Virus record (IMG/VR): IMGVR_UViG_3300021139_002043
Location: 1 to 23,531 of that record
Reading direction: 5' to 3' (one strand)
DNA from: a virus
Length of the DNA: 23,531 bases
The notes beneath the pieces were generated by a model. It searched no databases. It saw nothing but the letters and a program-made list of their open reading frames with translations, and was not told where the DNA came from. The position numbers were made by a program, and so were the translations under genes. Below, in pieces: positions 4,424 through 20,593 of the stretch (position 1 is the stretch's first letter; each line of letters starts with the position of its first letter).

Positions 4424-5752
4424 TTAGCTCTGGTTCGCATCGGCCGTGTCATCGAGCACGACGAACGCTTTCGGCTGTTCGGGAATGCCGCCAAGTCGGC
4501 CGGAAGCTCTAAAGGCGGTTCGGTTCTGTCTGAAGACTTCACCGGCCTGTCGAGACATTTCAACGGTTATACCGGTGCGCTCACCGATAAAGTAATGTTT
4601 CCAGTCGCCCAACACACAGTCTCCTCTATAGCCGAGACGTGCGGTGCGATAATCGGACACCACGACCGGATAACCCAGGACGTAACCGGCCACGCCTTCC
4701 GAAAAATCATTGTATCCGAGACCAAGCTGGATCACGGGCTGGCCGTTCTCATCCTTCTGTTTACGCAGGCTATTAAAACACGCTTTGGACATCATCCAAC
4801 ATGCGCCCGCATCGAACATAGGCGGCAATGCCGTGCTCATATTGAGCAAGTCTTCATATCTGACCCTACTTGCGGTCACTCGGTCAACACTACCAATGTT
4901 CGGGTCGTTCAATACACCCAACGGACGGGTGTTACCGAAGCCTCTCAGGAACTCACGGTCGGTCTGATACCAATAGGTGCCCTGGAAGAGTTGAACGAGC
5001 AAGTTACCGAGATTGATCGCGCTGTCCTCGATGAGAACGTTCGTGATCTCCGTGTAGGCCGAAATTTCATGAGCATCGAGGCTCAAAATATCGAACTGCG
5101 GACGGGTTTCCGGTTTCTCACCGCCCTCTTCGGTCCACGTTACGATCATGTTGCCGAAGAATTCTTCCTCACCCTCGGTAAGATCCTGAACCAAACGAGG
5201 CCATTTAATATTCGGGCCGGTCATCGGCCAAACTTGCGCTCTCGGCCAAACTATTGTGCCGGGAGGAGCGAATTGTAGCATTGCGTAACGAAAATCTTCC
5301 GGCACGAACAATCCACCGCCTGCGTCCTCGGTAGAACGCATAACGTCGGATATATCGAGCGCCTTGGTTTCTACCAAGAAAGGCATTCTTTTCTTGAGGG
5401 ACTTATTGGCTTCCATCAAGAACTCTTTGGTCTCATCACCCAAAGATTGAAAAACTCCGTGGGAGCCTCTCATGTAGCCCTTACCGGTAGCTTTCCAAAT
5501 TCCCTTCACATTGATAACGGAACCGCCCGGAAGACGATAAACGTCCTTTCCGACTTCCTCAAGATTGCCGTCATCAACTACACCGGTAGAGGCCGTATGA
5601 ACGGTAGTAACGGAGGGAGCAACCGCTTCCAACTTACCTAATCGTTCCTCATAACCTTTCGTAATCGTCCCGGCCACCGCATCGACTTTATCCTGGAGCA
5701 TCTTATCGAGTTCTTCCAGGCTCATCTTTTTTGCTTTGTTATCATCAGGCAT
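4424..5752 (-). CDS. Major capsid protein, HK97 fold, with N-terminal delta-like domain
   Basis: The protein has 442 residues. ATG 5752 is chosen over the in-frame ATG 5767 because GGAGAG lies 7 bases before 5752 but directly abuts 5767. Residues 1-129 are charged and helical (SLEELDKMLQDKVDAV and following), matching a scaffold-like delta domain; HK97's is 102 residues. A VETK at 127-130 followed by ALDISDVMRS is the expected place for maturation cleavage, leaving about 312 residues. The mature part carries phage_capsid (PF05065) signatures: GGGLFVPEDFRYAML at 145-159, the E-loop region near 182-225, YWYQTDREFLRGFGNTRPLGVL at 260-281 (dimer/spine helix and P-domain) and GYVLGYPVVVSD at 356-367. 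It forms the shell. The upstream 637-residue gene is a probable scaffold partner. Confidence 0.93.
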   Translation of the reverse strand: MPDDNKAKKMSLEELDKMLQDKVDAVAGTITKGYEERLGKLEAVAPSVTTVHTASTGVVDDGNLEEVGKDVYRLPGGSVINVKGIWKATGKGYMRGSHGVFQSLGDETKEFLMEANKSLKKRMPFLVETKALDISDVMRSTEDAGGGLFVPEDFRYAMLQFAPPGTIVWPRAQVWPMTGPNIKWPRLVQDLTEGEEEFFGNMIVTWTEEGGEKPETRPQFDILSLDAHEISAYTEITNVLIEDSAINLGNLLVQLFQGTYWYQTDREFLRGFGNTRPLGVLNDPNIGSVDRVTASRVRYEDLLNMSTALPPMFDAGACWMMSKACFNSLRKQKDENGQPVIQLGLGYNDFSEGVAGYVLGYPVVVSDYRTARLGYRGDCVLGDWKHYFIGERTGITVEMSRQAGEVFRQNRTAFRASGRLGGIPEQPKAFVVLDDTADANQS

Positions 5753-5780
5753 TTTATATCTCTCCATCTCCTATATTTGT

Positions 5781-7694
5781 CTATGCTTCAAGCTGTTCAA
5801 GCCTTGATTCAAGGGGTTTAGTAAATCTTTCCGCAATAATCCTATCGAATGCGCTCAGAAGTTCGTCGCTATCAAATTCGACCATATTGGCTTCCTTTGT
5901 TTCGACCTCTTCTCTTTTATCTTCTAGCCACGCTTTTAAAACAGTATCGCTCAAACAGTCAATCTTTTCTGCGACAATTTCCACAGGAGTCTTGTCCTTC
6001 TCTTTCTGTATCTTGAACTGTTTTTTGACCCATTTTTGAGCATCTTCGCTTTTCCATATTTGCTGATCGAATGAGTAATTGAGCATCTTATTGCAGGTCA
6101 CGCAAAAATCGCCGTCTACTCCGGTAAAATCTTTGATTTTGATCTTGTGAGTATGGCAGTCACAGTGATCGTCGTGGTCGAGCATTATGAGATGACTCTC
6201 TGAAGGCGGCTTATAGCCTTTCTCTTCTACTTGAACGGGCCCTTCCTCGATCACTTCTTCCTCTTTTTGTTTAAAGGGACATCCCTCTTCCGTGCAAGCG
6301 TCTATATCGGCCTGAGTGACATCTCTGTCACAGTGAATACAATATATGGGCTCTTCTTCGTCTTCGGGCTCTTCAACTTCCTCAACCGTCTCTTCCTCTA
6401 CCGGCTCCTCTTCATCACCCTCAAGGGCATTCAGACGCTCTTCCAGCGATTTGATTTTGTCTAACAGAAGGGCCGTTTTGGGATCTTCCTCATCTTCCGT
6501 TTCGACTTCTTCTACTTCAGGAGTTTCCTCAATCTCTTCCTCTTCTACGGGAGTCTCTTCCTCCTCTTCGGGCTCTTCCGGCTGATTGAAAGCTTCCTGC
6601 TCCTCTTCTTCAACAGGAGCCTCTTCCGCAGTCTCTACGGGCGCTTCCTCTTCAACCGGCGCTTCCGCCTCATCCAAAAGGGCTTTCGCTTTTTCGGGAT
6701 CTTCCGCAAGGAGAGCTTGGAATCGTTCTACGAGTGACATATCTTCCTCCTCATTTTCGAAGGGAATGTCTTCCTCTCCTTGTGGCATCTCTACCGGTAG
6801 CTCAGGCTCCTCTTCAGGCACGGGAGCGGCCTCTTGTGTTGGCTCCTCTTCTTGAGTTTCTTGTTCCGGCATATCCGGCAATTCAAATTCTTCTTGACCG
6901 GGCTCATCAGGTTCACCGGCATCGGGCACATTTACAAAATCGTTTGCTTCCTGATTTTCAGGCGCAGGTTGCTCGTCTTCCGGGAGTTCGTTTGCTCCGG
7001 GCTCTTCCTCTCCGCTGAATTCAAAGTAACTTCCCTGTCCTTGCTCTCCGGGCGACTCGATAGGCGCATCGTTCGGGGCTTGAGGGCTTGCTTCGTTCCA
7101 AAGCGATTCGGCTTCGGCCGCGCTCGATAAAGCGATTCCGACATCAGTTACTTTCCATTCACCGGTTACATGATTAAGACGAGAAACTACGGCAGGTTCT
7201 ACGCATTGGATCTCCAGGCCGGGGAGTTGTTTATCCGCAGCCAAATTATGAGTCCAAATGACTTTGAGTAACTTATCAAGCGTGTCCGTCACTACCGCTT
7301 TCTGCATGACGGCCGCTTGGTCCCCTATTCTGACTTTCCGCTGTATATTTTCAAGGGCATCCAGGCCAAGTGTTACACCTTGTAGCATGGACCCGACTAG
7401 ACTGTTTAATTGACCGGCAGCGCTCAACTTGGGATCGAGATCCGTGCTGTTGAGATACTGGCTCAGAACATTAATATATTCGTAATAGGCTTTCTTAGCC
7501 GCCATTCTCCCTTGCGCATACCACAACTCGGGAGCGGGCCAATTCGAGACAGTTGTTTGAGGGGCCATATTGTTTGCTCCCATCGGAGCATTTCCCTCTG
7601 TAATAGCGGCCGGAATAGCAATGTCGGACCCAAGATTACCGATCATTTTAGTAGTTATTTTTTGTTTTTTTGTTTTCTTCTTAGGCTTAGGCAT
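5781..7694 (-). CDS. Glu-rich scaffold-like protein with two putative zinc sites
   Basis: The protein has 637 residues. ATG 7694 overlaps the preceding stop by 8 bases and has GGAG 6 bases upstream. The N-terminus is strongly basic (PKPKKKTKKQK). Residues 50-195 look folded and helical, residues 205-450 are an extreme Glu/Pro low-complexity tract with a helical island at 319-345 and another at 405-425. Two Cys clusters may bind zinc: YCIHC (451-455) with C467 and C472, and HCDCHTH (510-516) with CVTC (531-534). Near the C-terminus VETK (597-600) repeats the capsid's putative cleavage motif, and the last 37 residues (ending TKPLESRLEQLEA) resemble the capsid delta domain (TKGYEERLGKLEA). Position directly before the capsid gene and acidity both suit a scaffold. 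The zinc sites are unusual for that role. Confidence 0.65.
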   Translation of the reverse strand: MPKPKKKTKKQKITTKMIGNLGSDIAIPAAITEGNAPMGANNMAPQTTVSNWPAPELWYAQGRMAAKKAYYEYINVLSQYLNSTDLDPKLSAAGQLNSLVGSMLQGVTLGLDALENIQRKVRIGDQAAVMQKAVVTDTLDKLLKVIWTHNLAADKQLPGLEIQCVEPAVVSRLNHVTGEWKVTDVGIALSSAAEAESLWNEASPQAPNDAPIESPGEQGQGSYFEFSGEEEPGANELPEDEQPAPENQEANDFVNVPDAGEPDEPGQEEFELPDMPEQETQEEEPTQEAAPVPEEEPELPVEMPQGEEDIPFENEEEDMSLVERFQALLAEDPEKAKALLDEAEAPVEEEAPVETAEEAPVEEEEQEAFNQPEEPEEEEETPVEEEEIEETPEVEEVETEDEEDPKTALLLDKIKSLEERLNALEGDEEEPVEEETVEEVEEPEDEEEPIYCIHCDRDVTQADIDACTEEGCPFKQKEEEVIEEGPVQVEEKGYKPPSESHLIMLDHDDHCDCHTHKIKIKDFTGVDGDFCVTCNKMLNYSFDQQIWKSEDAQKWVKKQFKIQKEKDKTPVEIVAEKIDCLSDTVLKAWLEDKREEVETKEANMVEFDSDELLSAFDRIIAERFTKPLESRLEQLEA

Positions 7695-10281
7695 TAGCTA
7701 CTCCGTTCGCTTCATTGTGCTTAACCGAATCTTTCATGAATGCATAGATTTCCGTTACGATATTGTTCAAGGAAGTAAACCCTGAAGAACCGGGCATTTT
7801 ACCTTCAACTACCGTCTTACAACTTTGAGAAATATCGGAAATCATTTTTGCAAGTTCCATCGCAGCTTGGGTTATAACTTCATCTTCAAATTCTTCCTGA
7901 GTCATTTGCGGCTTATTGGCATCGTATCCCTTGACCCCAAAGGCTTTGTCAATAAGGTCAGCAAGGGAAGCGCCCTTATTCGTGCCCGTCTTTTTCCCGG
8001 TTCCCTTAAATGCCCCTTCTGCTTCTAGTTTTTCATAAAGGGCATCAATTCTTTCGAGCAAGTCTATCTTCTTTTCTACATCATCGCCCTTAAGAACCTT
8101 TAACACTTCCGCTTTCTTTTCGTCGCTATCAAGCCAACCTAATGCATCCATTCTCGCAAAGGTTGTTTCCGGCTTAAAGGCGTATGTCCTATTGACACCC
8201 TCTAAATTTCTTCTTATTCCAAGTTCAACGAGTTTTTTAGCATATTGTTCTCTTTGAGCATCTACGGCGAATTTAACCGCATCTCTTTTCTGCGTCTCTT
8301 TCTCTCTTTTGATCTCCAACTCTATCGATCTATTTTTCGCCTTTTGTAATTCAACTTCAGAGTTGCCCTTTTTTCCGGGTTCTTTCGGGAGTTCAAAAGT
8401 ATCCTGCTCTTCTCTAAATTTTTTGTAATTCCCTAAAAACCGCTCTATGTCGCTTTGGAAATAATAAACGGTTTCTCCGAGAGCGCCTGCGCCCGCAGTA
8501 GCAGTAAGAGCCGCGAGCGTTCTACCGCTTAATTGAGGCAAAACTTTCTCGGAAGCCCACTGGTGATAAGTCTTAAGATTATCGGCAGCTTTTTTGTGTT
8601 GGGCTATTTGTCCCGCTTTTCTTTTTCGCATCAATTCAGAAGGCCAAACCCGCACTTGGAATTGCTTTGGCTTCCCCTTTTCACCCGTCATACTTAAAAT
8701 AGGATTGAGCTTAACAACTCTTTTCTCGCCTTCAGAACCAAGTTCCCATTTGCTTTTTGCAAGCCATTGTTTTGCTTTATTTTCCCAATATTCATTCACT
8801 TCCGCCACTTCCTCACTTGCTTCTTTAACTAAACCTGAAGTGGTCTTAGAAGTTCCCTTTATTCCCCAATGCTCAACTCCTCCCTCTCCTTTAAAAACCT
8901 CAAAACCCCATTTTGAAACCTGCTCTCTTGTAAAGGGCCACTTTTCACTTCCTAAGTCGGCAGGATTCATAGGCAATCGCCCATCGACAATGGCAAGGTT
9001 AGTGTAATCAACAGATTGAACTGCTTCTCTTGATAATTTGCCGTCTGCTCCTATCTTCCTTATTTTATGAAACAAAGTAAGACCGGTATGAGGATCAGTA
9101 TCAAAGTTTGCTTGCACTTCATGATAATTGTGCTTCGTGCTAATCAAATCCCATTCGGGAGAATGTTTAATGTCCCCCGACAACATGGGGCCAAGATCAC
9201 GGAATTCAGTAACCGGAATGCCATTCTCATGACGAACTTTGCCGGTAGCCTTGGCCAATAGTCTTCGTATTGGTCCTAAAGCACGAGCGAAAGTATAACC
9301 CTGATGTTCAAGGTAAGCCCGTCGTGCGCCGGTAATCCCTTTAAATTCACTTTCAGGCAAAATCTTTGTGAACTGAAGCCACGTAGGGTCTACTTCAAGA
9401 GGGTTTACTTCCCCTTCTTCCGTCAAAATACGAGCTTCCGTGCTCGCTCCCGGAGTGCGATAGAATTTCTCCTCTTCGGCTATAAGTTTTTTTCCTGCTA
9501 TTTTTGGCCTACTCGCTATCAAAGCACCTACGCCGACTATCATTGCGATAGTTGCAGCCGCAGTAATCAACTTGGCCTTTGATCTTTCGCTCTCGTCAGG
9601 ATGATCCTTCATAAAGGTATCATAGGCTTCTTTCACATCCCGAGACTGTTGAACTTCCCTGTCCCATTTCGCTCTGGAGGTTTTGACTTCGCTAAAAACC
9701 TTCTCCGTTCCTTCGGAATCGCTGACTCTCGGAATAGTTTTGCCGTTTACTTTTACTTTGCCGGGTCTCGATGCAATCGCATCCATGACTTCCTGTTCAC
9801 GCTTCTTCTGGTAAGCGGCAGGATCGGAAGCCAAGAGATACAGATCGGGATTCTGTTTTTCCAAAGCATAGTCTATGAGTTTTTGCCGAGTTTCTTCCTC
9901 AGTGATTTTGGGATTTTCTTCTTTCCATTGAGCGACAAGTTTCTCTTTGGCAGCCACAGGATCATTGGTCATGCGACCGGCATTCTTACGAGCGCCGCCC
10001 CATGCGCCTTTGGTGGGATGAGGACCGGCCGGTGCGCCTGCTTCATTTTTCTTAACGAATTCACCATCAGCACCACGAGGATGTTCACTTTCCACGAACT
10101 CTTCAGCAGTCATTTCTTTAGTAGCAATTTTATAAAGGTCACTAAGCCCTTTGCGTTGCATCTTCTCAAATTTATTCATATACTGAAGACTGTAAAAAAG
10201 CACATCAGGAGCCAAGAAAGTGACAATCTTCTTTTCAAAGGGAGTTAAATCATTAATATTTTTTTCCAATAGTGAACTCAA
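7687..10281 (-). CDS. Large virion-associated protein with ESEHPR motif, function unknown
   Basis: The protein has 864 residues from a TTG start at 10281 that overlaps the previous TGA (TTGA) and has GGGAG 7 bases upstream. Order of features: an N-terminal helical part (1-50); IATK-EMTAEEF, a candidate protease site at residue 55; ESEHPRGADGEF (64-75), a motif also present twice in the 1015-residue protein; a basic WGGARKNAGRM (94-104) like AT-hook segments of some terminase small subunits; a hydrophobic segment at 237-257 (LITAAATIAMIVGVGALIA); an alpha/beta region at 290-470 without recognisable motifs; a second hydrophobic segment at 587-609; and a long charged helical, probably coiled-coil part at 610-760. 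It is co-translated with the protease gene. I expect an internal head protein or ejection protein, but no family is recognised. Confidence 0.5.
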   Translation of the reverse strand: MSSLLEKNINDLTPFEKKIVTFLAPDVLFYSLQYMNKFEKMQRKGLSDLYKIATKEMTAEEFVESEHPRGADGEFVKKNEAGAPAGPHPTKGAWGGARKNAGRMTNDPVAAKEKLVAQWKEENPKITEEETRQKLIDYALEKQNPDLYLLASDPAAYQKKREQEVMDAIASRPGKVKVNGKTIPRVSDSEGTEKVFSEVKTSRAKWDREVQQSRDVKEAYDTFMKDHPDESERSKAKLITAAATIAMIVGVGALIASRPKIAGKKLIAEEEKFYRTPGASTEARILTEEGEVNPLEVDPTWLQFTKILPESEFKGITGARRAYLEHQGYTFARALGPIRRLLAKATGKVRHENGIPVTEFRDLGPMLSGDIKHSPEWDLISTKHNYHEVQANFDTDPHTGLTLFHKIRKIGADGKLSREAVQSVDYTNLAIVDGRLPMNPADLGSEKWPFTREQVSKWGFEVFKGEGGVEHWGIKGTSKTTSGLVKEASEEVAEVNEYWENKAKQWLAKSKWELGSEGEKRVVKLNPILSMTGEKGKPKQFQVRVWPSELMRKRKAGQIAQHKKAADNLKTYHQWASEKVLPQLSGRTLAALTATAGAGALGETVYYFQSDIERFLGNYKKFREEQDTFELPKEPGKKGNSEVELQKAKNRSIELEIKREKETQKRDAVKFAVDAQREQYAKKLVELGIRRNLEGVNRTYAFKPETTFARMDALGWLDSDEKKAEVLKVLKGDDVEKKIDLLERIDALYEKLEAEGAFKGTGKKTGTNKGASLADLIDKAFGVKGYDANKPQMTQEEFEDEVITQAAMELAKMISDISQSCKTVVEGKMPGSSGFTSLNNIVTEIYAFMKDSVKHNEANGVANA
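10048..10128 (-). repeat. TK-EMT-ESEHPR module, copy in the 864-residue protein
   Basis: This codes IATKEMTAEEFVESEHPR and then GADGEFVKKN. It is nearly identical, also at DNA level (GAAATGACT and CATCCTCGT shared), to 11565-11645, which indicates a recent duplication between adjacent genes. Confidence 0.85.
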
Positions 10282-13200
10282 ATTTTTTCTCCCTTCTCAA
10301 CCTTTACACTGATCCATTCTGACAAATTCGACATTCCATAGACCCTTCTATGATCTAAATTGCCTATTTTGATCGCATTCAAGGCAATATCCTTCATGGG
10401 ATCGTCTCCTTGAGAGGCGAATTGACCATAGTAATGTTGCACTTCCAAAATACCATCCGTATGAAATTCTTTTCTATGACCCTCCGAATCTTCTACTGTA
10501 AAGACTGCTCCCCTATGTCGAGAACTCGTTATATTCTTAAGGGCCGCATCCACTTCATCAGGCCATAATTTTTTAATTTTTTCTAATTCTGGCACCACGT
10601 CTACATCAGTCATTTTGTAATCGACAACTTTAAATTTCTGTCTTCCGGCCGTCATGTTTCCAAACGGATCAACCTGAACTGTTTCTCCCCACGGCTTTTC
10701 TTCTGAAGGAAACTCCCATTTGTCGGGTAACTTTAAGCCCGTGGGAATATCAATTTCCTTTCCAATAAGACCTTTACAGACACCCTCATATTCCTTCAAA
10801 TGGCGTTGCTGAACCTCATCATGTTTCATGGTGATTGAATGAGCATATTCGTGCATAAGTAATTCACGAGGCGTAAATTCATCTCCAATTACCCGAGACA
10901 AATCCTCATGAATTCCGGCATTGATATAAATCGTGTCCGTTCCCACAAAGTAGCAAAAATTATTGTTGAGAATATTCTTCACATTGAAAACATTGAATTG
11001 AGTATGGCTTAAGAGAACGACCTTTGCCGTTCCACCTTCAGGAAGATGTCCAAATTTCTTCGCCAAATCTTTCTTGAACTCATCACTGTTTACGTAATCA
11101 ATGATTTGCTGTTGGAATTTAGTCCTCTTTGAATCCTCGAAAACTCGATTCTCCACCTGAAGATTAATGATATTTGTTAAAGCTTTTTTATTAGGATTCG
11201 GCTTTGGACACGCCTTCACAACATCATCGGCCCTCACTTGGGCCTGTTGAAGGTTCTCGGAAGACTTAAGGATGTCACTATCACGCAAAATAACGTAACC
11301 CATTTGACTTGCTCCTGCTATCCCAAGAGCAAGTAAGACGTCGGCTCCTCCTACAATATTTGATTTACTTTTGCCCATTAGAGCAAGACTCCCGGCTCCA
11401 GCCCCAATGACCACTCCTGCGTGAAGGGCCATTTCTAAAACACTGGATGGTCGAGTAGTCGGCATGTCTTTATATTTAGGATCGTCAAAAAAATCAGGTT
11501 TATTTACCGTCTTTTTATTAGATTTTGGAATCTTATCTTGTTTTGGCTGAGAAACTTCTCCTTCGTTCTTTTTTGCAAATTTACCATCTTCGGCACGAGG
11601 ATGCTCACTTTCAACAAATTCCCCAGAAGTCATTTCTTTGGTTTCAATAACTCCGGTCATGTGACCGGAGTTTTTTAATTCATGAACCATCTTGTCGTAA
11701 AAAGTTTTAAGTTTCTTATATTGTTCAGTTTCCGTTGCCCCAATAGATTCGGCCTTTGATAGAGCCGCTTTGGTGAGAGTCAAGATTCCAAGAAGTTTAT
11801 CAGTTGCATCTAAAGGACCAAGTTCTTTAATGACATTGTTCTTCAACCAATTGCTGATTTTTTTACTAACCCATTCTTGCGTTTTGGGATCTTTGGCCGC
11901 ATGTTTAATCCCATAATACAGACCCGTAACCACTCCTATTTTGACAATCCAGCCCTTTGCCCAATTGCCCCATGAGTCCTTGTCTTTGATTTCCTCAATG
12001 TCCTGGCGGTCCCTTCTTTGATTCGCCAGAATGATATCGAGCTTTCGATTGACTTGTTCATCTTTCGGATCATAATGACCACCGATAATAGGCGTAGAGC
12101 TACTACCGGAAGAAGTGAATTCGCCGTCCTTTGCACGAGGATGTTCCGATTCATCCCAATTGAAGAGTTTCGTCACAAAGCCCTTCCAGACAATAGGCAC
12201 ATCAGGAGACTCTTCAAGACCATCTACTATTTGTCGGCAATCCATCCCCAACCCACGCCACATTTCAACCATTTTAGGTCGATCTTCGTAAACAATTTCC
12301 ACTCGGGCTTTGGGAATTTCGCCGGATTCAACCCAATCTCTCTTGAGATCAACGTCATCTTGGCGATTATCAGCAGGTCGCATCAACAATTTGTCATAAT
12401 GAACATCATGATCATGAAGCCATTTCTCGGTTTGCTCCCTTACCTGATCCGACCTGCCGGAAGCAATATAGATTTCATGGCTGCTTGCCCACTTATTGCA
12501 CAGATCTATGATCTCCTGATTGGGAGTATCTTTGACGGAAGCCTCATAAAAGGCGTCATAGTCGCCCTTTTGAGGATCTTTTTTCTCAATCAAATGAATT
12601 CTATGTTCAACATTGGCCAAAGTGCCGTCCAAATCGAAGACTGCAATGGCCTTATCGGGCATTCCTACGCCCTTTGTCACACTTTCAATGAAGAAATAGC
12701 TCTTCGGGTTGAGCCATTCTTTGATTATCGGTGTAACATCCTGTCCTTCGTAGGATTTCATGACCATATCCGCGACTTTATTGCCCTTCTGAGCGTAGGT
12801 TATGAGAGCTTCACGGTTAGAAGGTATAGAAAGTAGCGAAATTTCGACTAATTCGACCTCTTTATAGTATTTTTTAAGTCCTTTGTTCTGTAAATATGGC
12901 GGTAAAAGGTGATCATGAGGATCTTTGACGTAATCTACCGGCACAAAACCGGCTGAGAGGCCCCTAAGACATCCTTCATTGATCAAAGTAAGGCATTCTT
13001 CGCCTACGGGAGTCGTAGCAAGGTAGAATTTCGCCCATAAACCCTCTTCTCGGGGCTCAATTGCAATACAGCGGCCTATTGGAAGGCTGTCACGGGTAGT
13101 TTTGTGCTGATGACCAAGCAAAAGGACCGGATTTTCCATATAAATCGGCAATCTTTTGACAAAAGCCGACACAGGAACGAATTCCATGTCCCTATCTACC

Positions 13201-13325
13201 GTGGGAGTGGATGTAATGGCCTCAAAAGTGCGTGCTTTCGGGTCTACCACGTTGAGAATCGTTCCAAAATCACGAGTAACCTTCGGGCCGTCTATCTCCA
13301 TGCTGCTTTTTGCTACTTGAGCCAT
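10278..13325 (-). CDS. HK97-type prohead protease fused to Pnkp-like HAD phosphatase and a HExxH metallopeptidase domain
   Basis: The protein has 1015 residues, several times the length of a normal prohead protease. ATG 13325 directly follows the previous TAG. Residues 18-180 are the S78 protease: PVLLLGHQHK with the catalytic His region (H72/H74), LPIGR, LSAGFVP with Ser124, and VELVEISLLSIPSN (157-170). Residues 222-368 match the 3'-phosphatase half of T4 Pnkp: AVFDLDGTLA (D231, D233), ASGR (288-291), KLLMRPADNRQDD, K328 and YEDRPKMVEMWRGLG (346-360). ESEHPR motifs occur at 392-397 and 572-577, each shortly after a TK site (386, 563). Hydrophobic stretches lie at 456-472 and 633-680. HEYAHSITMKH (825-835) has metzincin-like HExxHxxxxxH spacing with Thr instead of the usual Gly. 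A cleavable polyprotein is my inference; see findings. Confidence 0.87.
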   Translation of the reverse strand: MAQVAKSSMEIDGPKVTRDFGTILNVVDPKARTFEAITSTPTVDRDMEFVPVSAFVKRLPIYMENPVLLLGHQHKTTRDSLPIGRCIAIEPREEGLWAKFYLATTPVGEECLTLINEGCLRGLSAGFVPVDYVKDPHDHLLPPYLQNKGLKKYYKEVELVEISLLSIPSNREALITYAQKGNKVADMVMKSYEGQDVTPIIKEWLNPKSYFFIESVTKGVGMPDKAIAVFDLDGTLANVEHRIHLIEKKDPQKGDYDAFYEASVKDTPNQEIIDLCNKWASSHEIYIASGRSDQVREQTEKWLHDHDVHYDKLLMRPADNRQDDVDLKRDWVESGEIPKARVEIVYEDRPKMVEMWRGLGMDCRQIVDGLEESPDVPIVWKGFVTKLFNWDESEHPRAKDGEFTSSGSSSTPIIGGHYDPKDEQVNRKLDIILANQRRDRQDIEEIKDKDSWGNWAKGWIVKIGVVTGLYYGIKHAAKDPKTQEWVSKKISNWLKNNVIKELGPLDATDKLLGILTLTKAALSKAESIGATETEQYKKLKTFYDKMVHELKNSGHMTGVIETKEMTSGEFVESEHPRAEDGKFAKKNEGEVSQPKQDKIPKSNKKTVNKPDFFDDPKYKDMPTTRPSSVLEMALHAGVVIGAGAGSLALMGKSKSNIVGGADVLLALGIAGASQMGYVILRDSDILKSSENLQQAQVRADDVVKACPKPNPNKKALTNIINLQVENRVFEDSKRTKFQQQIIDYVNSDEFKKDLAKKFGHLPEGGTAKVVLLSHTQFNVFNVKNILNNNFCYFVGTDTIYINAGIHEDLSRVIGDEFTPRELLMHEYAHSITMKHDEVQQRHLKEYEGVCKGLIGKEIDIPTGLKLPDKWEFPSEEKPWGETVQVDPFGNMTAGRQKFKVVDYKMTDVDVVPELEKIKKLWPDEVDAALKNITSSRHRGAVFTVEDSEGHRKEFHTDGILEVQHYYGQFASQGDDPMKDIALNAIKIGNLDHRRVYGMSNLSEWISVKVEKGEKI
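11565..11645 (-). repeat. TK-EMT-ESEHPR module, second copy in the protease polyprotein
   Basis: This codes ETKEMTSGEFVESEHPR and then AEDGKFAKKNEG, directly after palindrome copy 2. It is the closest relative of the 864-protein copy at 10048-10128. Confidence 0.85.
11649..11672. repeat. 24-bp palindrome, copy 2 of 3
   Basis: It is identical to copies 1 and 3. It is read as NSGHMTGV (residues 552-559) in the 1015-residue protein, exactly before the putative cleavage site IETK-EM that opens the metallopeptidase module. Confidence 0.95.
12114..12179 (-). repeat. ESEHPR module, first copy in the protease polyprotein
   Basis: This codes FVTKLFNWDESEHPR then AKDGEFT, after the phosphatase domain. 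It is more diverged than the other two copies but keeps the same layout: a TK site, a few residues, ESEHPR, then DGxF. Confidence 0.8.
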
Positions 13326-16106
13326 CTACTTTTTATCCTTAATATTCAACTTGCCGACTTTGGGAGTTCCCACTTTGGGAACATGGCCCATCGGCTTCAA
13401 TTGCTCCCTCTCCATTTTCTCTTCTTGGCGAGCCGCTCTCTCAGCTTTATCCTCCTGAGACTTCTTTCTCTTCTCCTCATAGGCGGGATCTTTGAAAGCG
13501 TGTTGTTCCTGCGGGCTCATCTGTCTAAATTCGGCCTTAGTTTGCTCTCTACCTTCTTCTTTGCCCTTCTGATTGCCTAAGACAGCCCCCATTCCGAGAG
13601 CCGCTCCAGCGGTCAATAGGTGCGACTTGAGAGACTTTTCTTCTTTGGGATTTCGACTCTCCTCTATTTTTTTCTTAAGGAAATAAACGCCAGTTCCGCC
13701 TATAGCCGCAGGTATAGCAAGTTTGGCCGCTCTTTTAAGTTGAACTTTTCGACCTGCCTTATTGAGTTCACGCCGAACCAATTCACTTGGACCCATCTCA
13801 GTATGGAATTCATCGCCTTTCATGTAATCTCTATCGGCAAGCCCCTTTGTGCGAACGTAATAAGGCTCTCCCTCAGAATCATAAAATTTCTCAGGAGTAT
13901 TTTTACCGGCACGACCACCAGCAGCCGCTCCAGCAGACCCTATGCCGGTTATTATGCCAAGACCAGCTAAATCCGCATCACGAGCAGCAAGTTTTTTGAT
14001 TTTCTTTGAATGCCTCAAGAGAGCACCCGTTCCTAAGGTTGCAGCAACTCCAGCCGCACTTCCTTCACCAGCTCCCGCCAAAGCACCTCTTATTCTACCG
14101 CCTTCCGGCGCACTAGCAGCGCCGGAAGCAGCTCCCGTAACACCGCCTATCGCAGCGCCTACACCACAGGACTTATGAAAATCGTGTGCTACATGTCCTA
14201 ATTCTTGCAATGCACGCTCTTTGAAACTGCCCTTAGTCACAACTTCAGGACCATCAAATTCCTTATATCCGTAAGGATCTTCGGGTTTATCCAATTTGGC
14301 CGTTCCCATTATGCCGCCGCCAATCATCCCCTGAGCCTGAGCCGTATCTGCGACCTTACCTCTAGCTTGAACCGCCGCTCGTCTTGCTCCCGGAACTCTC
14401 TGGCCCGATCTTGCCGCTTTAATGGCCTCTACAGCCCTCTTCTCATTGATATGAGTAGTTGTTCCGGCAAGTGCCCCACCACTCAAGCCGCCTATCGCAG
14501 CCCCTCTCAAGGCACCTTGCACTCTATCTTCGGGAGAGCTTAATGCACCTGTGGCCGCACCAGTAGCAGCGCCGCCCATAGCGCCACGTAGACCGGCCTT
14601 GGCCATTTGTTTAGTGGGAGTAATGGCAGATAAAATGCCTTTGGTCACAGTTGTCGGCCCTTCCAACTCTTCATAGTTTTTTTTTACATCGGGACTATTC
14701 TCATCCCTCTTGAGTTTACGAACACCCGCCTGAGCCACATCATCAGCCAAGTTGCCTATGGGACGTAGATGTTCCAACACATCTCCAACTATGCCTTTGG
14801 TTTCGGTGTCAACAGAGTCAGCGGGGGTCACTGTATCCGTTTTGCCGTTATAACTACGATTCAAGTTTGAGTCTCCGGGATTTGCGACCATAGAATTAGG
14901 CATTTGGAAACCGGAATTCGCAGGAGCGCCAAACCCGGCATTTCCTTGCACACCTTTCTCTTCTTTTTTACTATGCCGCATTTTAGAAAAGTTTATAGCG
15001 AGATTGGCTTGTCGTTTTGTCTCAGTATCCGCCTTGGGATCGGACATAACATGATGAGCGTATTCTTCCGTGCCCATACCGGCTGCTTCCGCTTTGGCCT
15101 TAAATGCTCCGGGGTGTTTCACCACTTCACTTTCGGGCTTACCGAATATAGTGCCGCCCTTGACCACGACTTCAGGGCCTTCAAGTTCTTTCACCTTCAT
15201 CCTATCCGGGTTGAGGGCAGGCTGAGCCGCTACTCCACGCTCAAAGTCATGTTGCGGAGAAGTAGACGGAGCGGTATTCAACGAAGGATCTCCGGGGACC
15301 AATCCTTTCTCTTTCAACTTGTCGGTTAATTCACGAAATCTTTTAGGAAGTTCCTTTTCACTTGTGGCCGATGTTCCATATTTCTTGAGGTTCTCGGCAC
15401 GACTAACAGCTTCTTTTGTGGCTGCGCTTGCTGCTTTGGCAAACTTGTCGCCTGAGAAAATGCCCTTTTTCTTCACTTCGATGGTTTTGCCCGAAGCAAA
15501 TTCACCCTTCTTGGAAATGCCTTTTTCTTCTTTTTTACGACCAAGGAGATAAGCGCCTGCGCCTAAAGCGGCAGCGCCAGCTCCTAATCCGAGAGCGACT
15601 TTGGCTCCTCGACCTAATTTGCTTTTCTTCGCTGCCTGAGAAACAACCTTTTCTCCTTGAGATACGGGAGTTGGTTTGGGTTTAGGTATCTCAGACTTCT
15701 TCGGTTCAAACGCTTTGCTTAATTCCTCGTCATTCAAATCACGATAGCCGACACGTCTTTTGTCTTGACGAAGTTCATTCTTCTCACGCATCTCGGCCAA
15801 TTTCTTCTTGCCCTCTTTAGTACGTCCAAATGAAAAGGCATCGTCGGGTCTTTTGCGGAGAACGTCATAACCGCCACCATAAGTCTGAGTGCCCCCATCT
15901 TTGGTCTCAACCGTATTGCTCCACACCATACCCTTAGTAACGGTTTCAACATCGTCACTCATAGCCTTGGCACGCATTTCTGCGATTTGATAACAATTTA
16001 CGTCCTCTTTAGCGTTGGGTTTTTGAGAAAGTCCATGCTCAAACTGTTCCATATCGTAGCCATTAGAGGAATCCATTTCTGAGTAAGAGGCTTTTCCGCG
16101 TGCCAT
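13326..16106 (-). CDS. Glycine-zipper head polyprotein, probable internal/ejection protein
   Basis: The protein has 926 residues from ATG 16106, with AGGAG 7 bases upstream; it begins MARG like the 352-residue protein. It is built from repeated units. TK/VK-G sites follow acidic leaders at K58, K316 (ELEGPEVVVKG), K437 (DTETKG), K489 (ELEGPTTVTKG), K625 (EFDGPEVVTKG) and K754 (YYVRTKG), with related KEEKG/S at 195, 384 and 824. Between them are Gly/Ala-rich hydrophobic segments at about 168-190, 505-550, 647-697, 713-733, 796-811 and 830-845, each flanked by basic residues, as in membrane-inserting glycine zippers. The C-terminus (850-905) is charged and probably coiled coil. I recognise no family. 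Position between portal and protease and the repeated sites suggest internal head peptides that could help DNA cross the host membrane. Confidence 0.6.
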   Translation of the reverse strand: MARGKASYSEMDSSNGYDMEQFEHGLSQKPNAKEDVNCYQIAEMRAKAMSDDVETVTKGMVWSNTVETKDGGTQTYGGGYDVLRKRPDDAFSFGRTKEGKKKLAEMREKNELRQDKRRVGYRDLNDEELSKAFEPKKSEIPKPKPTPVSQGEKVVSQAAKKSKLGRGAKVALGLGAGAAALGAGAYLLGRKKEEKGISKKGEFASGKTIEVKKKGIFSGDKFAKAASAATKEAVSRAENLKKYGTSATSEKELPKRFRELTDKLKEKGLVPGDPSLNTAPSTSPQHDFERGVAAQPALNPDRMKVKELEGPEVVVKGGTIFGKPESEVVKHPGAFKAKAEAAGMGTEEYAHHVMSDPKADTETKRQANLAINFSKMRHSKKEEKGVQGNAGFGAPANSGFQMPNSMVANPGDSNLNRSYNGKTDTVTPADSVDTETKGIVGDVLEHLRPIGNLADDVAQAGVRKLKRDENSPDVKKNYEELEGPTTVTKGILSAITPTKQMAKAGLRGAMGGAATGAATGALSSPEDRVQGALRGAAIGGLSGGALAGTTTHINEKRAVEAIKAARSGQRVPGARRAAVQARGKVADTAQAQGMIGGGIMGTAKLDKPEDPYGYKEFDGPEVVTKGSFKERALQELGHVAHDFHKSCGVGAAIGGVTGAASGAASAPEGGRIRGALAGAGEGSAAGVAATLGTGALLRHSKKIKKLAARDADLAGLGIITGIGSAGAAAGGRAGKNTPEKFYDSEGEPYYVRTKGLADRDYMKGDEFHTEMGPSELVRRELNKAGRKVQLKRAAKLAIPAAIGGTGVYFLKKKIEESRNPKEEKSLKSHLLTAGAALGMGAVLGNQKGKEEGREQTKAEFRQMSPQEQHAFKDPAYEEKRKKSQEDKAERAARQEEKMEREQLKPMGHVPKVGTPKVGKLNIKDKK
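14229..14264 (-). repeat. EFDGPxVVTKG repeat (putative cleavage motif)
   Basis: This codes residues 615-626 of the 926-residue protein (KEFDGPEVVTKG). The other copies are at 14637-14672 and 15153-15191. A diverged relative (MEIDGPKVTRD) is at residues 9-19 of the protease protein. Confidence 0.8.
14637..14672 (-). repeat. ELEGPxxVTKG repeat (putative cleavage motif)
   Basis: This codes residues 479-490 (EELEGPTTVTKG). It is followed by ILSAI and a glycine-zipper segment. Confidence 0.8.
15153..15191 (-). repeat. ELEGPEVVVKG repeat (putative cleavage motif)
   Basis: This codes residues 306-318 (KELEGPEVVVKGG) of the 926-residue protein. It has the same acidic leader and small residue after Lys as the other copies. 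Confidence 0.8.
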
Positions 16107-16129
16107 GTTCGTTCTCCTGTATACGATAT

Positions 16130-16153
16130 AACTCCGGTCATGTGACCGGAGTT
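16130..16153. repeat. 24-bp palindrome, copy 3 of 3 (intergenic)
   Basis: It is identical to copies 1 and 2. It lies in the 71-base gap between the portal stop (16178) and the ATG of the 926-residue gene (16106), about 12 bases upstream of the latter's AGGAG. The frame of NSGHMTGV equals the portal frame continued past its TAA. A hairpin here could affect translation or mRNA stability of the downstream gene. Confidence 0.95.
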
Positions 16154-16177
16154 ATTTAAGACGTTGAAATCGTTCTT

Positions 16178-18589
16178 TTATTCCATTTCCGGCTTTGCCA
16201 AGCACGCACAATATGGATGGCGCGGCATCTCCAGATATGTTTTATTCTCAACATAGTCAACGATTGTCTGGCCTTTCTCGCTGTTGCACTCTTTACAAGT
16301 GCGCTCTCCGAGAGTCGGCAGCAAAGAACATCGTTTGACTACAATTTTTCCTGAGTCTTTATTGATTGTTCTATAGCTGGCATCTACACCGGCAAAGGCT
16401 CCAGCAGCCAGTTCCGTCCGAGAAATCATCTCGGCCCTCTTCGTTCCTATGTCCTCAAATCTCTTTTGAATCATCTCCGCAACTGCATCACTATCGAGAC
16501 CTTTATCAAGGCCCTCTCGAATGATTTCTGTAAGGGCCCTCTTAGTGCTTACCACTTTGAGATCGGCGCTTCTGTTGAGAAACTTTCCAGCCGCTCGCAA
16601 GCTTTCTTTTTCGTAAACATCGGGCGGATCGAAATCATTAAAGCCCGACTTTTGAACCATTAGGAAACCACTCTGATAACCGGCCTCAACCGCTTTATGA
16701 ACAAATGAAGATGCCTGAGAAATATAATCCTCTCTCAAGACGCTTTCATCTATATCAAACGTGCTGCCTTTGGTCGTAAACTTTGAGAAGTTCTTTGTTA
16801 CGATATCCGCGATTTCAATACCTTTTTGAACGAAGAACTTGCCGCTCTCTTCCGCAAATGATTCTTCTAAGGGAACAATAATAGAGAAGTAATCTTCGAT
16901 AATATCGAAATAGAGTTTATCTTCCTCTTCTCCATATTCCTTTAGAGCGTAATCTCGAATGGCCTTGGTTAAGAGCCTTGTAAGGCCCATATCCCTTGAA
17001 CGCTCTTGACCCAAAAGGCTTTGAATACTCGGTTCGTCGGAATGAGCCGCTAATAGACCTGCCAATCCCCCTCTTCTTCCTCGTGAAGCGGAAAGAAGAG
17101 CTGAAAGAGCCGGTCGGGAATTTTGTAGAGCTTGATTCACCAAAGTCGTTAGGGCTTGACCAGTTGGCCTTCCCCCTTCTACACCGTGATTTCCTTGGTC
17201 TTCCGGCGCATTACTTTCTTCTCCTGGAACTGCGCCCATTGGTTGAGGCGGACTCTGGAAATCTTTCCATAACTTGTCAGCCTCTTCACTATTTCCGGGT
17301 AACGGCTGGCCTCCAACCCACGGGACTTCGGCTAACGGAGACTTAAAGGGCTTCACACCTTCTCTTCTTCTTATTTCATTAAGGGTCACAAGCCCGATTG
17401 ACAACTCGGTCTGATTCTTGCTTAATTCAAATTCATCGTCTCTCGCAAGAGCGTTTGCGAATTCAAACTCATATCCATCGAGGTTTCGATAACGAGTCAC
17501 CAATTGAGCATTGATACAGTCTTCAAACATTCTCAATCGAGGGCTCAAACAGTTCTTCGCAAAGATATTCTGAGTGTTAAGGGATGCGCTCTTGTTGCTC
17601 TCTCCCATAATCCCTAGCATTGCTTCGGGAACACCGTAACCACTTAATATTACTTCTTTTGTCCAATTCGCCATCGACAAAAATTCAAAATCATGGGCGC
17701 TCATCGAAAGCTGTTGAATCTTGACATTCTCGCTCATGACCGCAGGCTTGAAGTTTTTCCCCGGTCCTCTGAAGCGAGCCATCCATCCTTCGCTTACTCT
17801 CTCAGCCGCTACTTTCCCTATCTGTTTTTCGGGAATAATCACGAAGTCAGGACGGGCTCCGTTCTCAAAAAATCCCTTGGTGTAAACCTGAAGATGAAGG
17901 TCAATCTCAGTTGCATGGCTCATAGCCTGCAAGGGAGACATAGGAACATAAGGATTCTCAGGATGCGGATAATGAAAATAGAGCATATCCTTCCAGGGAA
18001 TAAATTCGGTCTTCATTTTGTTCTGAGGATTTGAGAAATGAAAGCCTTTAATAAAAGTGTCGGGCGTAGTCCCCAATTCCACCTGGACAAGACAATGAGG
18101 AGGATATGGAATTAATTGAGCCGGTTTCCCGGCTCCATTAGAGAGAATCTTAACAAAAGCACATCCGGCGAGTTCCAAATTCAAGAAAATATATCGCATC
18201 AATTGACGGCCCGAAAGATACTCATTGGGCCGTTTTAAAAGCTTTATGATCGGGTGAGAAAGAACTCTCTCAAACGCTTCCCTGTCCTGTTTGCTTTTCT
18301 CTTTATAGAGGTAATAGGGAACGGCCGCAACTTCATTCGCAATGATATTTACGACCGGATAAACCCATCCTCTATATCGTTGCAGGCCCCTTGCGGCATC
18401 CACCTTCGGAGATATAGTGCCCGGTTCATTCCCCCTAACGGTTTGAAGACCGGAACGTAATTCTTCCCATCCCTTACCCGTAACGAGCTGAAGACCGGCA
18501 GTCTCTATCTCGTCTTCAAACGATTTGACTTCATAAACCGGTCTTCCCCATGTCTTATAGGCAGTCGTTATATTCTGTAAGAAGCCCAC
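16178..18589 (-). CDS. Portal protein fused to MuF-like minor head protein
   Basis: The protein has 803 residues, with a GTG start 3 bases after the preceding stop. Residues 60-440 form an HK97-type portal (PF04860): YRGWVYPVVNIIANEVAAVP (72-91), HPIIKLLKRPNEYLSG near 112-127, a wing/stem region with SPLQAMSHATEIDLHLQVY (218-236), a long GYGVPEAMLGIMGESNKS (318-335) and the C-terminal crown region with VTLNEIRRREG (401-411). A Gln/Gly/Pro linker (445-535) leads to a helical part and a MuF domain (about 640-803): SRTELAAGAFAG (723-734), RTCKEC (763-768), GQTIVDYV and MPRHPYCACLAKP (788-800), the usual Cys/His zinc-like end. The portal is the DNA channel at the head vertex and MuF proteins sit inside the head near it. 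FTTKG at 604-608 resembles the TK-G sites. Fused portal–MuF genes are known in other phages. Confidence 0.93.
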   Translation of the reverse strand: MGFLQNITTAYKTWGRPVYEVKSFEDEIETAGLQLVTGKGWEELRSGLQTVRGNEPGTISPKVDAARGLQRYRGWVYPVVNIIANEVAAVPYYLYKEKSKQDREAFERVLSHPIIKLLKRPNEYLSGRQLMRYIFLNLELAGCAFVKILSNGAGKPAQLIPYPPHCLVQVELGTTPDTFIKGFHFSNPQNKMKTEFIPWKDMLYFHYPHPENPYVPMSPLQAMSHATEIDLHLQVYTKGFFENGARPDFVIIPEKQIGKVAAERVSEGWMARFRGPGKNFKPAVMSENVKIQQLSMSAHDFEFLSMANWTKEVILSGYGVPEAMLGIMGESNKSASLNTQNIFAKNCLSPRLRMFEDCINAQLVTRYRNLDGYEFEFANALARDDEFELSKNQTELSIGLVTLNEIRRREGVKPFKSPLAEVPWVGGQPLPGNSEEADKLWKDFQSPPQPMGAVPGEESNAPEDQGNHGVEGGRPTGQALTTLVNQALQNSRPALSALLSASRGRRGGLAGLLAAHSDEPSIQSLLGQERSRDMGLTRLLTKAIRDYALKEYGEEEDKLYFDIIEDYFSIIVPLEESFAEESGKFFVQKGIEIADIVTKNFSKFTTKGSTFDIDESVLREDYISQASSFVHKAVEAGYQSGFLMVQKSGFNDFDPPDVYEKESLRAAGKFLNRSADLKVVSTKRALTEIIREGLDKGLDSDAVAEMIQKRFEDIGTKRAEMISRTELAAGAFAGVDASYRTINKDSGKIVVKRCSLLPTLGERTCKECNSEKGQTIVDYVENKTYLEMPRHPYCACLAKPEME

Positions 18590-18592
18590 AAT

Positions 18593-19534
18593 TTAATGTC
18601 CCACTTGTTCTTTTTTGAAATCTGCGAGATTAGAAAGTTTAGCATCCAGGGCCGAATGAATGTGAGTCAAGAGAGATGCGTATCTCTTTTGTTTCTGAAG
18701 AATTTGAGTTTCAACTGCTTCGATTTGATCTTCACTCTGAAGGAACTGGTCCTTAAAAGAAGTGAATTTTTGAAGCATTCTCGTTTCTACGAGAGTCACC
18801 TGATTTTCAACTGAGTCGGGAGTATCACCCGGAGCTACTACTTCGGGGGTTACTGAGGTAGTCGTATCGTCAGCCACTTGTGTCTCCTTTTTTGTTTCTG
18901 GAATCGGGTCAGGAATTACTTGAACTGTAGGCGTGCTGGCCGCAACAGTTTCAGGAGTGCTTACATCAACATCACTCACTACTATTGTAGAATCGGGAGT
19001 AATATCAACCGTGACCGGCTGAGTAAATGCTACCTTTTCATCGGTCAAAACATATTGAGGCGGATCTCCTGTGACCTTAAACGTTCGTTCTGTCGTTTGG
19101 ACCTGCTCTCCCACGGTTTCAGTTAATACTACTTTGGTTTCCAATGGGCTTGCTTCCGTTACAGGTGCATCAGTCGAAACAGCCGATGTATCAAGAGTGC
19201 TCTGGTTCGTATCAACAGACACCGGAGTCTCGCTAGTCGGCTGCGCCTCAACGGTTGTTTGAGTTGTGTCATCGGCCATGTTTCCTTGCTCCTTTTGATC
19301 GCCGCCTACGTTCGTAATGGTCAAATTCCTGATTGCCTTTTTTGAATACCATTCTTGAATGATAGCCTTTTGAACGTCTCCTGAAACAATTAACGGAGGA
19401 TTCCCGGCCACATCGAACTGTATGGGATAAGGAGAGCGCAACCGCCGTGCTATCTCGTCAACGGATGATACGTTGACAACATCATTCACGGAAGTTGCGC
19501 CGTTATTAAACATGAGGAGAAGTCGAAAAGACAA
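18593..19534 (-). CDS. Thr/Val/Asp-rich protein with C-terminal coiled coil, unknown function
   Basis: The protein has 313 residues if it starts at TTG 19534, directly after the previous TAA and with GAGGA 4-5 bases upstream; ATG 19513 is in frame but lacks a ribosome site. Residues 8-75 look like a small folded domain (VNDVVNVSSVDEIARRL, then VQKAIIQEWYSKKAI). Residues 85-240 are a low-complexity Thr/Val/Pro/Asp/Glu tract, probably extended, with a beta-like island (TERTFKVTGDPPQYVLTDEK). Residues 245-305 are a heptad-rich coiled coil (TLVETRMLQKF, then IEAVETQILQKQ). It is wedged between the glycine-rich protein and the portal with no gaps, so a structural or assembly role around the portal is likely. 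No family is recognised. Confidence 0.5.
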   Translation of the reverse strand: MSFRLLLMFNNGATSVNDVVNVSSVDEIARRLRSPYPIQFDVAGNPPLIVSGDVQKAIIQEWYSKKAIRNLTITNVGGDQKEQGNMADDTTQTTVEAQPTSETPVSVDTNQSTLDTSAVSTDAPVTEASPLETKVVLTETVGEQVQTTERTFKVTGDPPQYVLTDEKVAFTQPVTVDITPDSTIVVSDVDVSTPETVAASTPTVQVIPDPIPETKKETQVADDTTTSVTPEVVAPGDTPDSVENQVTLVETRMLQKFTSFKDQFLQSEDQIEAVETQILQKQKRYASLLTHIHSALDAKLSNLADFKKEQVGH

Positions 19535-20593
19535 TTAGTCCTCGTCTTTCTCCAACGCTCTTTTGACACCATAGCCAGCCATACCGGCAACCGTTGCGCC
19601 TGTGCCTAAAGCAGTACCACCAGTGGCCATCTGATTATGGTTGGCAAGTTTCGATGCTCTACCAAGAGAAGTCTTCTCCCTTTTGCTTCGACTCAAAGCT
19701 TGACGATTTTTCATGTCCTTCAGACCGGTTCCTATCGCCTCACCAACCCTTTTGACACCGCCCTTTGCCGCCTCTACAATGCCCTTCTTCTCCATCTTGC
19801 CACCGATACACTTCTCTTCTTTTTCGGTAGTTTCTTTACCGGCTCGATATGCCCTTGCGATAGAACTATTCTTTATGGGGTGAAGAGTATTCTCTTTTAT
19901 GGCCCTAATTGGATGCTTAGTGTCTTCCCAATCTGCCTTATAACTCTCTTTAATGCCAGCCTTAGCACCCTCTCCTCTTTTGCCCTCTCCAGCTCCTATG
20001 GCCCCCGCCGCTCCACGAGCACCAACATTTAGCCCTACACCACCAGCCGCACTACCAGCCAAAACGCCTCCAGCCTTATATTTGTCGGCATTGCGTTTGA
20101 AATGCTCTTTGGCACCCTCTACGACTCTCCCACCAAATTTCTTGGCTCCTTCATAAGCCTCTTTAGCTCGCCCCTTCAGCACCACTTCCGACCCGATCTC
20201 CTTGCAAACAGTCTGAGTGTGCGCCTGAGCATTATCCAGAAACTCGCCCACGTTGTAGGGATTGAGTTCGATGTTGGCCGCAATGCCTTTGGCCACGACA
20301 TCGTTGTATCTCTCGTAGCCCTTGCGCTGACAATCCTGGACGTAAGTATCCGCTATGTCCTTCTCGGCACCCTCACGGACCTTATCCACGTCTTTGGAGA
20401 TAGTCAGATCATCTTCCTCTGTTTTACGACCGCCTTTCTTGGGGCCTTTACCGGAAGCAAGTTCTTTCATCTCTTCTTCTTCGGTAGCATCCCTCCCGGC
20501 GTCTTTGTTCGGTAGAGTCTCCGGGCTCTCGCCGCCCTTCGTCTCGATACCAAATCCCTTAGAAACTATAAAATCAGCATTTCCTCTCGCCAT
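19535..20593 (-). CDS. Glycine-zipper protein of the head cluster, related in build to the 926-residue protein
   Basis: The protein has 352 residues. ATG 20593 (MARG) is preferred over ATG 20599 because GGAGAG lies 7-8 bases before it; the 926-residue gene begins the same way. A putative site IETK-GG occurs at residue 19, with others at VVAK-G (102), EVVLK-G (140) and MEKK-G (270). The stretch after 140 (GRAKEAYEGAKKFGGRVVEG) and that after 270 (GIVEAAKGGVKRVGEAIGTG) are recognisably the same repeat. Gly/Ala-rich hydrophobic segments are at 173-204 and 321-343. Residues 30-75 are highly charged. There are no catalytic motifs. I infer an internal head or ejection protein processed like its larger relative; the gene is certain, the role is not. 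Confidence 0.55.
   Translation of the reverse strand: MARGNADFIVSKGFGIETKGGESPETLPNKDAGRDATEEEEMKELASGKGPKKGGRKTEEDDLTISKDVDKVREGAEKDIADTYVQDCQRKGYERYNDVVAKGIAANIELNPYNVGEFLDNAQAHTQTVCKEIGSEVVLKGRAKEAYEGAKKFGGRVVEGAKEHFKRNADKYKAGGVLAGSAAGGVGLNVGARGAAGAIGAGEGKRGEGAKAGIKESYKADWEDTKHPIRAIKENTLHPIKNSSIARAYRAGKETTEKEEKCIGGKMEKKGIVEAAKGGVKRVGEAIGTGLKDMKNRQALSRSKREKTSLGRASKLANHNQMATGGTALGTGATVAGMAGYGVKRALEKDED

Follow-up and report, generated by a model that had tools for sequence, protein, structure and literature searches.

The window analysed here is a complete 23,531-base IMG/VR contig (IMGVR_UViG_3300021139_002043) from an uncultured tailed phage, and all its head genes lie on the minus strand. 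Short elements ending in lysine stand at the module boundaries of its presumed head-packaged (cargo) proteins, and every lineage of its clade carries them. Because the same tag is found at the predicted maturation cut of the shell protein, the protease probably cuts the cargo tag as well. We consider it likely that the S78 prohead protease encoded by the phage itself recognises these elements and would trim packaged polyproteins into modules there. An initial annotation, made from the DNA letters alone, had proposed HK97-family protease sites between head-protein modules; the proposal now has strong indirect support from the capsid cut motif, a copy of the capsid segment in cargo, and conservation.

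The head genes follow the series terminase, 352-residue glycine-rich protein, 313-residue protein, portal-MuF fusion, 926-residue protein, 1015-residue protein, 864-residue protein, acidic 637-residue protein and HK97-type capsid protein. The 926- and 1015-residue genes abut, and the 1015- and 864-residue genes overlap by four bases. The putative terminase was named from its own sequence and position; it has no Pfam match.

Lysine-ending elements at module boundaries

The features of the 926-residue protein are given below, with (-) for the minus strand and an arrow for a proposed cut.

13326..16106 (-): 926-residue glycine-zipper polyprotein; its six K↓G sites would give pieces of 58, 258, 121, 52, 136, 129 and 172 residues
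16071..16106 (-): N-terminal signal MARGKASYSEMD, common to cargo proteins
15933..15935 (-): proposed cut after K58 (VETVTK↓GMVW)
15159..15161 (-): proposed cut after K316 (ELEGPEVVVK↓GGTI)
14973..15122 (-): small module phrog_20603 (HPGAFKAKAEAAGM...), residues 329-378, phrog E = 1.8e-7
14796..14798 (-): proposed cut after K437 (VDTETK↓GIVG)
14640..14642 (-): proposed cut after K489 (ELEGPTTVTK↓GILS)
14466..14591 (-): glycine zipper, residues 506-547
14232..14234 (-): proposed cut after K625 (EFDGPEVVTK↓GSFK)
13845..13847 (-): proposed cut after K754 (YYVRTK↓GLAD)

All six lysines that the initial annotation had named in this protein (K58, K316, K437, K489, K625 and K754) stand where it placed them, and the E(L/F)(E/D)GP form that it described precedes three of the six and is missing from the other three. 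TKG occurs five times against 0.72 expected in shuffled sequences (p = 0.004), and E(L/F/M)(E/D/S)GP three times against 0.01. Residues 508-547 match Pfam Gly-zipper_Omp with E = 1.3e-4, slightly under the curated cut-off. The phrog_20603 module, located between K316 and K437, is a free-standing protein in crAss-like cr50_1 (72 residues) and Thermus phage P23-45 (59 residues). In the 352- and 1015-residue proteins, site counts alone were at chance relative to shuffles. The plain TKG count was consequently dropped as proof for these two, and support there had to come from relatives and orthologues.

Relatives were reached through capsid, portal and protease searches; a pattern search for relatives of the 926-residue protein found none, and a capsid alignment run on genome contigs gave zero matches. 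Six related contigs and one near-duplicate were obtained, making seven lineages counting the window, and their capsid proteins are 52-63% identical to that of the window.

Lineage A: L002/L011/L017
Lineage B: L003/L018
Lineage C: L004/L016
Lineage D: L005/L010, near-duplicate L009/L019
Lineage F: L006/L007
Lineage G: L049, a 31.9-kb contig binned in a Brevinema (spirochaete) genome

HPR headers and ELDDS elements, described next, are absent from the distant protease relatives (from L020 on; 32 protease relatives were fetched), so the trait appears confined to this clade.

The element has three forms. Class A, in the glycine-zipper proteins, consists of E(L/F)(D/E)(D/G)(S/P), three to six further residues and K↓G; examples are KELDDS(L/I)IVEK↓G, found four times in one 761-residue protein, ELDDSIETK↓G in lineage D and ELEGPTTVTK↓G in the window. 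Class B, TK↓xMTxEEFxExEHPRxxDGxF, heads enzyme modules and the 864-residue module, with lysine 9-12 residues upstream of the HPR header in 15 of 15 cases. Class C, K↓ALDxxxVMxSxxDxxGGLF, lies at the C-terminus of the 864-residue-protein homologues and is a copy of the capsid protein's delta/arm boundary. Glycine-zipper units also occur in tandem: A647 and G531 have three to four KG(Y/F)xx(Y/F)N...KGF(Q/E)IEEK units.

The class A anchor, E(L/F)(D/E)(D/E/G/S)(S/D/P), was chosen without the lysine. It matched 20 times in cargo and never in 62 control proteins, and K(G/A/S/N) followed at +4 to +7 after 16 of the 20 (background 0.115). The pattern (V/I/F)x(T/V/E)K(G/A/S) occurred 35 times in the 19 cargo proteins of the clade against 10.1 ± 3.2 in shuffles, and 12 times against 7.4 in the control proteins; its arginine version and its reversed version were at chance. 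Copies of the element within one genome use differing synonymous codons (13 of 24 identical-residue pairs in the window, 90 of 166 in L018), which argues that the peptide is selected and that the copies are not recently copied DNA.

Orthologue conservation carries the case for the 352-residue protein.

19535..20593 (-): 352-residue glycine-rich cargo protein, with orthologues in three lineages
20537..20593 (-): 19-residue N-terminal prepeptide ending IETK19↓GGESPETLP, conserved in 4/4 orthologues
20288..20290 (-): proposed cut after K102 (VVAK↓GIAA)
20174..20176 (-): proposed cut after K140 (IGSEVVLK↓GRAK), aligned with ELDDSLVVK↓G in L049

When the four orthologues were aligned, K12, K19, K102 and K140 were invariant in all four, compared with only 4 of the 25 other gap-free lysine columns. 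Sites in the enzyme-bearing proteins and the portal are listed below.

10278..13325 (-): 1015-residue polyprotein: S78 protease, PNKP-type phosphatase, DSWxxWAK module, zincin metallopeptidase
12726..13325 (-): prohead protease domain, residues 1-200, Peptidase_S78
12672..12674 (-): proposed cut after K218 (IESVTK↓GVGM), between protease and phosphatase; FVTK↓GAGL in L003 and IITK↓GGGL in L049 at the equivalent place
12219..12665 (-): PNKP/HAD phosphatase module, residues 221-369; PF25109 E = 4e-21, phrog_415 E = 1.2e-41
12168..12170 (-): proposed cut after K386 (KGFVTK↓LFNWDESEHPR) of the 1015-residue protein; VSK↓VFGWNESEHPR in L004
11637..11639 (-): proposed cut after K563 (GVIETK↓EMTSGEFVESEHPRAEDGKF) of the same protein, heading the metallopeptidase
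10281..11558 (-): zincin-like metallopeptidase module, HEYAH at residues 825-829; aligns with L003 and L049
7687..10281 (-): 864-residue cargo protein: 55-residue leader, HPR header and a conserved module present in all seven lineages
10117..10119 (-): proposed cut after K55 (KIATK↓EMTAEEFVESEHPRGADGEF) of the 864-residue protein
16769..16771 (-): candidate site K607 (FTTK↓G), variable loop of the portal-MuF fusion; lysine in 5/5 portals

The TK-G type sites that the initial annotation reported in the 352-, 926- and 1015-residue proteins are therefore real, by enrichment in the 926-residue protein and by orthologue conservation in the other two. Its list of three proteins was too short, as it had overlooked K55 of the 864-residue protein, K607 of the portal-MuF fusion and VETK135↓A of the capsid protein. 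Glycine at P1' is not strict, since K386 precedes leucine and K563 glutamate. K607 is the weakest candidate. The loop lysine of the portal-MuF fusion (window 16178-18589), in the form (T/I)K↓(G/D/E), is kept in 5/5 relatives and possibly marks a cut between the portal and MuF parts.

The S78 protease spans residues 15-181 of the 1015-residue protein. The S78 family (PF04586) was matched at residues 89-178 with 29.8 bits against a curated cut-off of 21, and phrog_80 with E = 2.8e-15; a solved-structure profile search with the protease gave no credible match. According to the alignment, H72, H74, S124, E158 and E161 are invariant in five relatives, and a catalytic role presumably lies among them. 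All six lineages whose locus extends over the domain have it, at the N-terminus. The zincin module has no Pfam family match. Its HExxH motif is shared with L003 and L049 (HEWGH and HEYAH) and is absent from the cargo and other open reading frames (ORFs) of lineages A, C and D, save a chance match inside a portal protein. Since these lineages keep the junctions without the zincin, and S78 is constant, the prohead protease is the best candidate for the processing enzyme.

The predicted capsid maturation site and the changing modules

4424..5767 (-): HK97-type major capsid protein; PF05065 E = 7.1e-41, residues 208-439
5363..5365 (-): predicted maturation cut after K135 (LVETK↓ALDISDVMRSTEDAGGGLFVPED); lysine kept in all relatives

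The fold profile, the N-terminal extension and the conserved predicted cut site all indicate an HK97-type capsid protein with a delta domain. VETK135↓A lies between the N-terminal delta region and the mature arm, and all seven lineages have lysine at this place. The cut in HK97 gp5 falls after K103 (K103/S104), at an equivalent kind of boundary (PMC10275583), so lysine at P1 is natural for the S78 enzyme family.

A hidden Markov model (HMM) was built solely from the capsid boundary segment and run on 149 clade ORFs. Outside the capsid proteins it matched one family only, at the C-terminus of 864-residue-protein homologues from five lineages (E = 5.7e-10, 2.2e-6, 1.9e-4 in a split ORF, 0.004 and 0.033; the next match was 0.73). 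An example is KVETKALDMAGVMSSQMDAQGGLF in L007, compared with LVETKALDISDVMRSTEDAGGGLF in the window's capsid protein. At the sequence level, this shared segment ties the cargo sites to the predicted capsid maturation cut.

The initial annotation had suggested examining relatives for conservation of the motif next to changing modules. This comparison was run and bore the idea out: the sites stay while modules are fused, split, permuted or swapped, and the lysine-ending element recurs at the junctions of the rearranged modules. In L003, a single 2171-residue chain contains the protease, the DSW module, a further module, the 864-residue module and, last, the metallopeptidase, which follows the DSW module in the window and L049. 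The split in L049 (787 + 945 residues) is that of the window, without the phosphatase, and L002 has the protease (252 residues) separate from the 864-residue module (911 residues). In L004 (1523 residues), the place of the PNKP phosphatase is taken by a 2H-phosphoesterase-like region that matches LigT weakly (E = 0.059); L005 (1296 residues) has neither. The phosphatase is absent from lineages A, B, D and G.

The near-identical contigs L009 (13166-16947) and L010 (8544-12434) diverge sharply solely inside the 864-residue module, which suggests recombination within it.

Proposed processing and its alternatives

In the scheme we favour, the glycine-zipper and enzyme-bearing proteins would be made as tandem modules and would enter the growing prohead, probably by means of an RGKAxF signal and the HPR headers. 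The protease would cut off the capsid delta domain after K135 and would also cut cargo after the lysine of each element, freeing glycine-zipper segments, the PNKP-type phosphatase, the metallopeptidase and the 864-residue module inside the head. Judging from such domains in other phages, these would pass into the host together with the DNA. A type VI effector uses glycine zippers to permeabilise membranes (PMC10240207), and in T4 and other phages enzymes packaged in the head are delivered to the host (PMC5512222); by analogy with these systems, ejection and membrane action might be expected here.

Targeting would rely on two sequence features. Glycine-zipper cargo proteins start with a signal close to RGKAxF (12 N-termini, aligned by eye), a candidate capsid-targeting sequence. 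The leader of the 352-residue protein and its three orthologues is 19-22 residues long and ends at a conserved K↓G, and the protease may remove the 19-residue prepeptide, a candidate for a targeting role.

Head regions of unrelated phages have the HPR header too (L047 5935-8139 and 8414-11467; L048 2270-4381): in Gordonia phage Forza it is part of the protein after the portal, and in Pseudomonas phage Orimi01 it lies between the portal domain and the ADP-ribosyltransferase domain. Its presence elsewhere with no evident K↓G in front suggests that it is perhaps a general cargo header or a marker of head-packaged effectors.

Several points weigh against processing by the prohead protease. Cleavage at every site is something that we infer from sequence. 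The capsid cut itself was predicted by position, with solved-structure profile matches stopping short of the N-terminal arm, and the C-terminal copy of the capsid arm is absent from the window's own 864-residue protein. A pattern taken strictly from the capsid sites was only mildly enriched in cargo (33 versus 21.5). The 64 sites of the sequence logo were picked by eye with lysine at P1, so the logo is no evidence for P1; variation at P2 and P1' makes for a weak signal beyond the extended elements. AlphaFold pLDDT values of 41 (1015-residue protein) and 45 (864-residue protein) are too low to show disorder at the sites. Finally, the HPR motif of the Orimi01 portal-ADP-ribosyltransferase fusion has no evident preceding K↓G.

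This last case, the header after the portal in Forza and the already tag-like N-terminal RGKAxF signal would suit elements that stay uncut. They would then be tags for docking or packaging, placed in flexible linkers and binding to capsid protein, scaffold or protease, while the cargo remains as long chains. We regard this as rather unlikely, because the capsid maturation boundary has a segment in common with the tags, which end in lysine in 16 of 20 and 15 of 15 cases and occur several to a protein at module borders instead of once. The zincin metallopeptidase at the end of the 1015-residue protein could also be the processing enzyme, given its HEYAH motif and the standing proposal of zincin processing for polyvalent proteins (PMC5512222). 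It was rejected as the cutting enzyme: lineages A, C and D, which have no HExxH, keep the junction sites and the S78 protease, and the kinship with the capsid site would be left unexplained. We judge this role very improbable.

Slightly less credible still is that the repeats were left behind by DNA duplication or mark recombination seams, and do nothing as protein sequence. Near-identical DNA copies do exist in lineages D (9/11 codons) and G (16/18), and the modules are shuffled. Against this, about half of the identical-residue codon pairs differ in the window and lineages A and B, and the same residues persist across lineages with capsid proteins of 52-63% identity. Duplicated DNA was rejected as the whole explanation on the synonymous codon differences.

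Beyond site recognition, a true capsid polyprotein system is a tentative proposal, one that we find quite plausible and yet stop short of calling probable. One protease-site cassette, common to the capsid maturation site, would allow modules to be inserted, swapped or rearranged, and the protease would free membrane-active glycine-zipper pieces together with host-entering enzymes. If so, prohead proteases would free whole cargo sets from polyproteins inside the capsid, beyond the trimming of propeptides, in parallel with polyprotein-coding RNA viruses, which do so in the cytoplasm. Packaged cargo of uncultured phages could then be recognised by a sequence rule (an RGKAxF start, the element ELDDS..K↓G, and headers of the type TK↓EMTxEEFxExEHPRxxDGKF). 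The system would also offer a natural plug-in tag with which to load proteins into capsids, and the route by which injected enzymes such as the PNKP-type phosphatase reach the host could be tested directly.

Known systems and neighbouring genes

The statement in the initial annotation that no system of this layout had been described was too strong, as polyvalent proteins (PMC5512222) and the internal head proteins of T4 and SPN3US (PMC7411985, PMC10052503) are conceptually close. Polyvalent proteins are the nearest known kind. They are large multidomain effectors among virion genes, with peptidases, 2H phosphoesterases and MuF/portal fusions, and were likened by their authors to viral polyproteins (PMC5512222). 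Consistent with this, the window has S78, PNKP and zincin domains in one chain beside the portal and capsid proteins. Processing of polyvalent proteins was ascribed mainly to zincins, and their assemblin-like peptidase was said always to be C-terminal (PMC5512222), whereas S78 is N-terminal here. The text of PMC5512222 contains no mention of 'HPR', 'linker' or 'glycine zipper'. A further difference is that here a repeated recognition element marks the module borders.

An S78 protease paired with an HK97-type capsid protein that has a delta region and lysine at the cut, predicted in our case, resembles HK97 gp4/gp5. To our knowledge, HK97 has no cargo polyproteins of this kind, and its protease is not fused to enzymes.

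The specificity of T4 gp21 is for glutamate at P1; the present element ends in lysine in 16 of 20 and 15 of 15 anchored cases. In T4, the internal proteins IPI-III and Alt carry a short N-terminal targeting signal ending in a prohead-protease site, and this cargo is held in the head and ejected (PMC7411985). As a candidate targeting peptide, the 19-residue leader of the 352-residue protein is reminiscent of this capsid-targeting sequence. T4 has one propeptide cut per protein, whereas many internal sites with lysine at P1 are proposed here. In the phiKZ-like giant phage SPN3US, head processing by gp245 involves 14 sites with the motif AXE in 9 proteins; 13 of the 14 remove N-terminal propeptides, and extra sites shred propeptides (PMC10052503). 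In contrast, the sites described here separate modules that resemble functional domains. In phage P1, a signal in the 250-kDa DarB directs it to the head, and a foreign protein can be delivered there by the same signal (PMC9024508); an array of internal sites like the present one is not reported in the passages of that paper that were consulted.

An acidic protein of 585-729 residues precedes the capsid gene in lineages seen whole (window 5781-7694; L004 8083-9963; L007 514-2343). It has a zinc ribbon, CxxC...CP(F/L), and a conserved HxxxxDHxDH block, often preceded by lysine, and is possibly a scaffold.

Right after the capsid genes, the window contains glycosyltransferase-like genes and a TylF-type methyltransferase fragment (494-2975 and 1-489), including a 535-residue protein matching PF01075 (E = 4.5e-8). 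Similar genes are found at the equivalent place in L004 and L006, forming a glycan-modifying cassette within the structural operon. In L004, a LAGLIDADG-type homing endonuclease gene (2570-3532; PF14528, E = 1.5e-6) lies between the glycine-zipper and protease genes.

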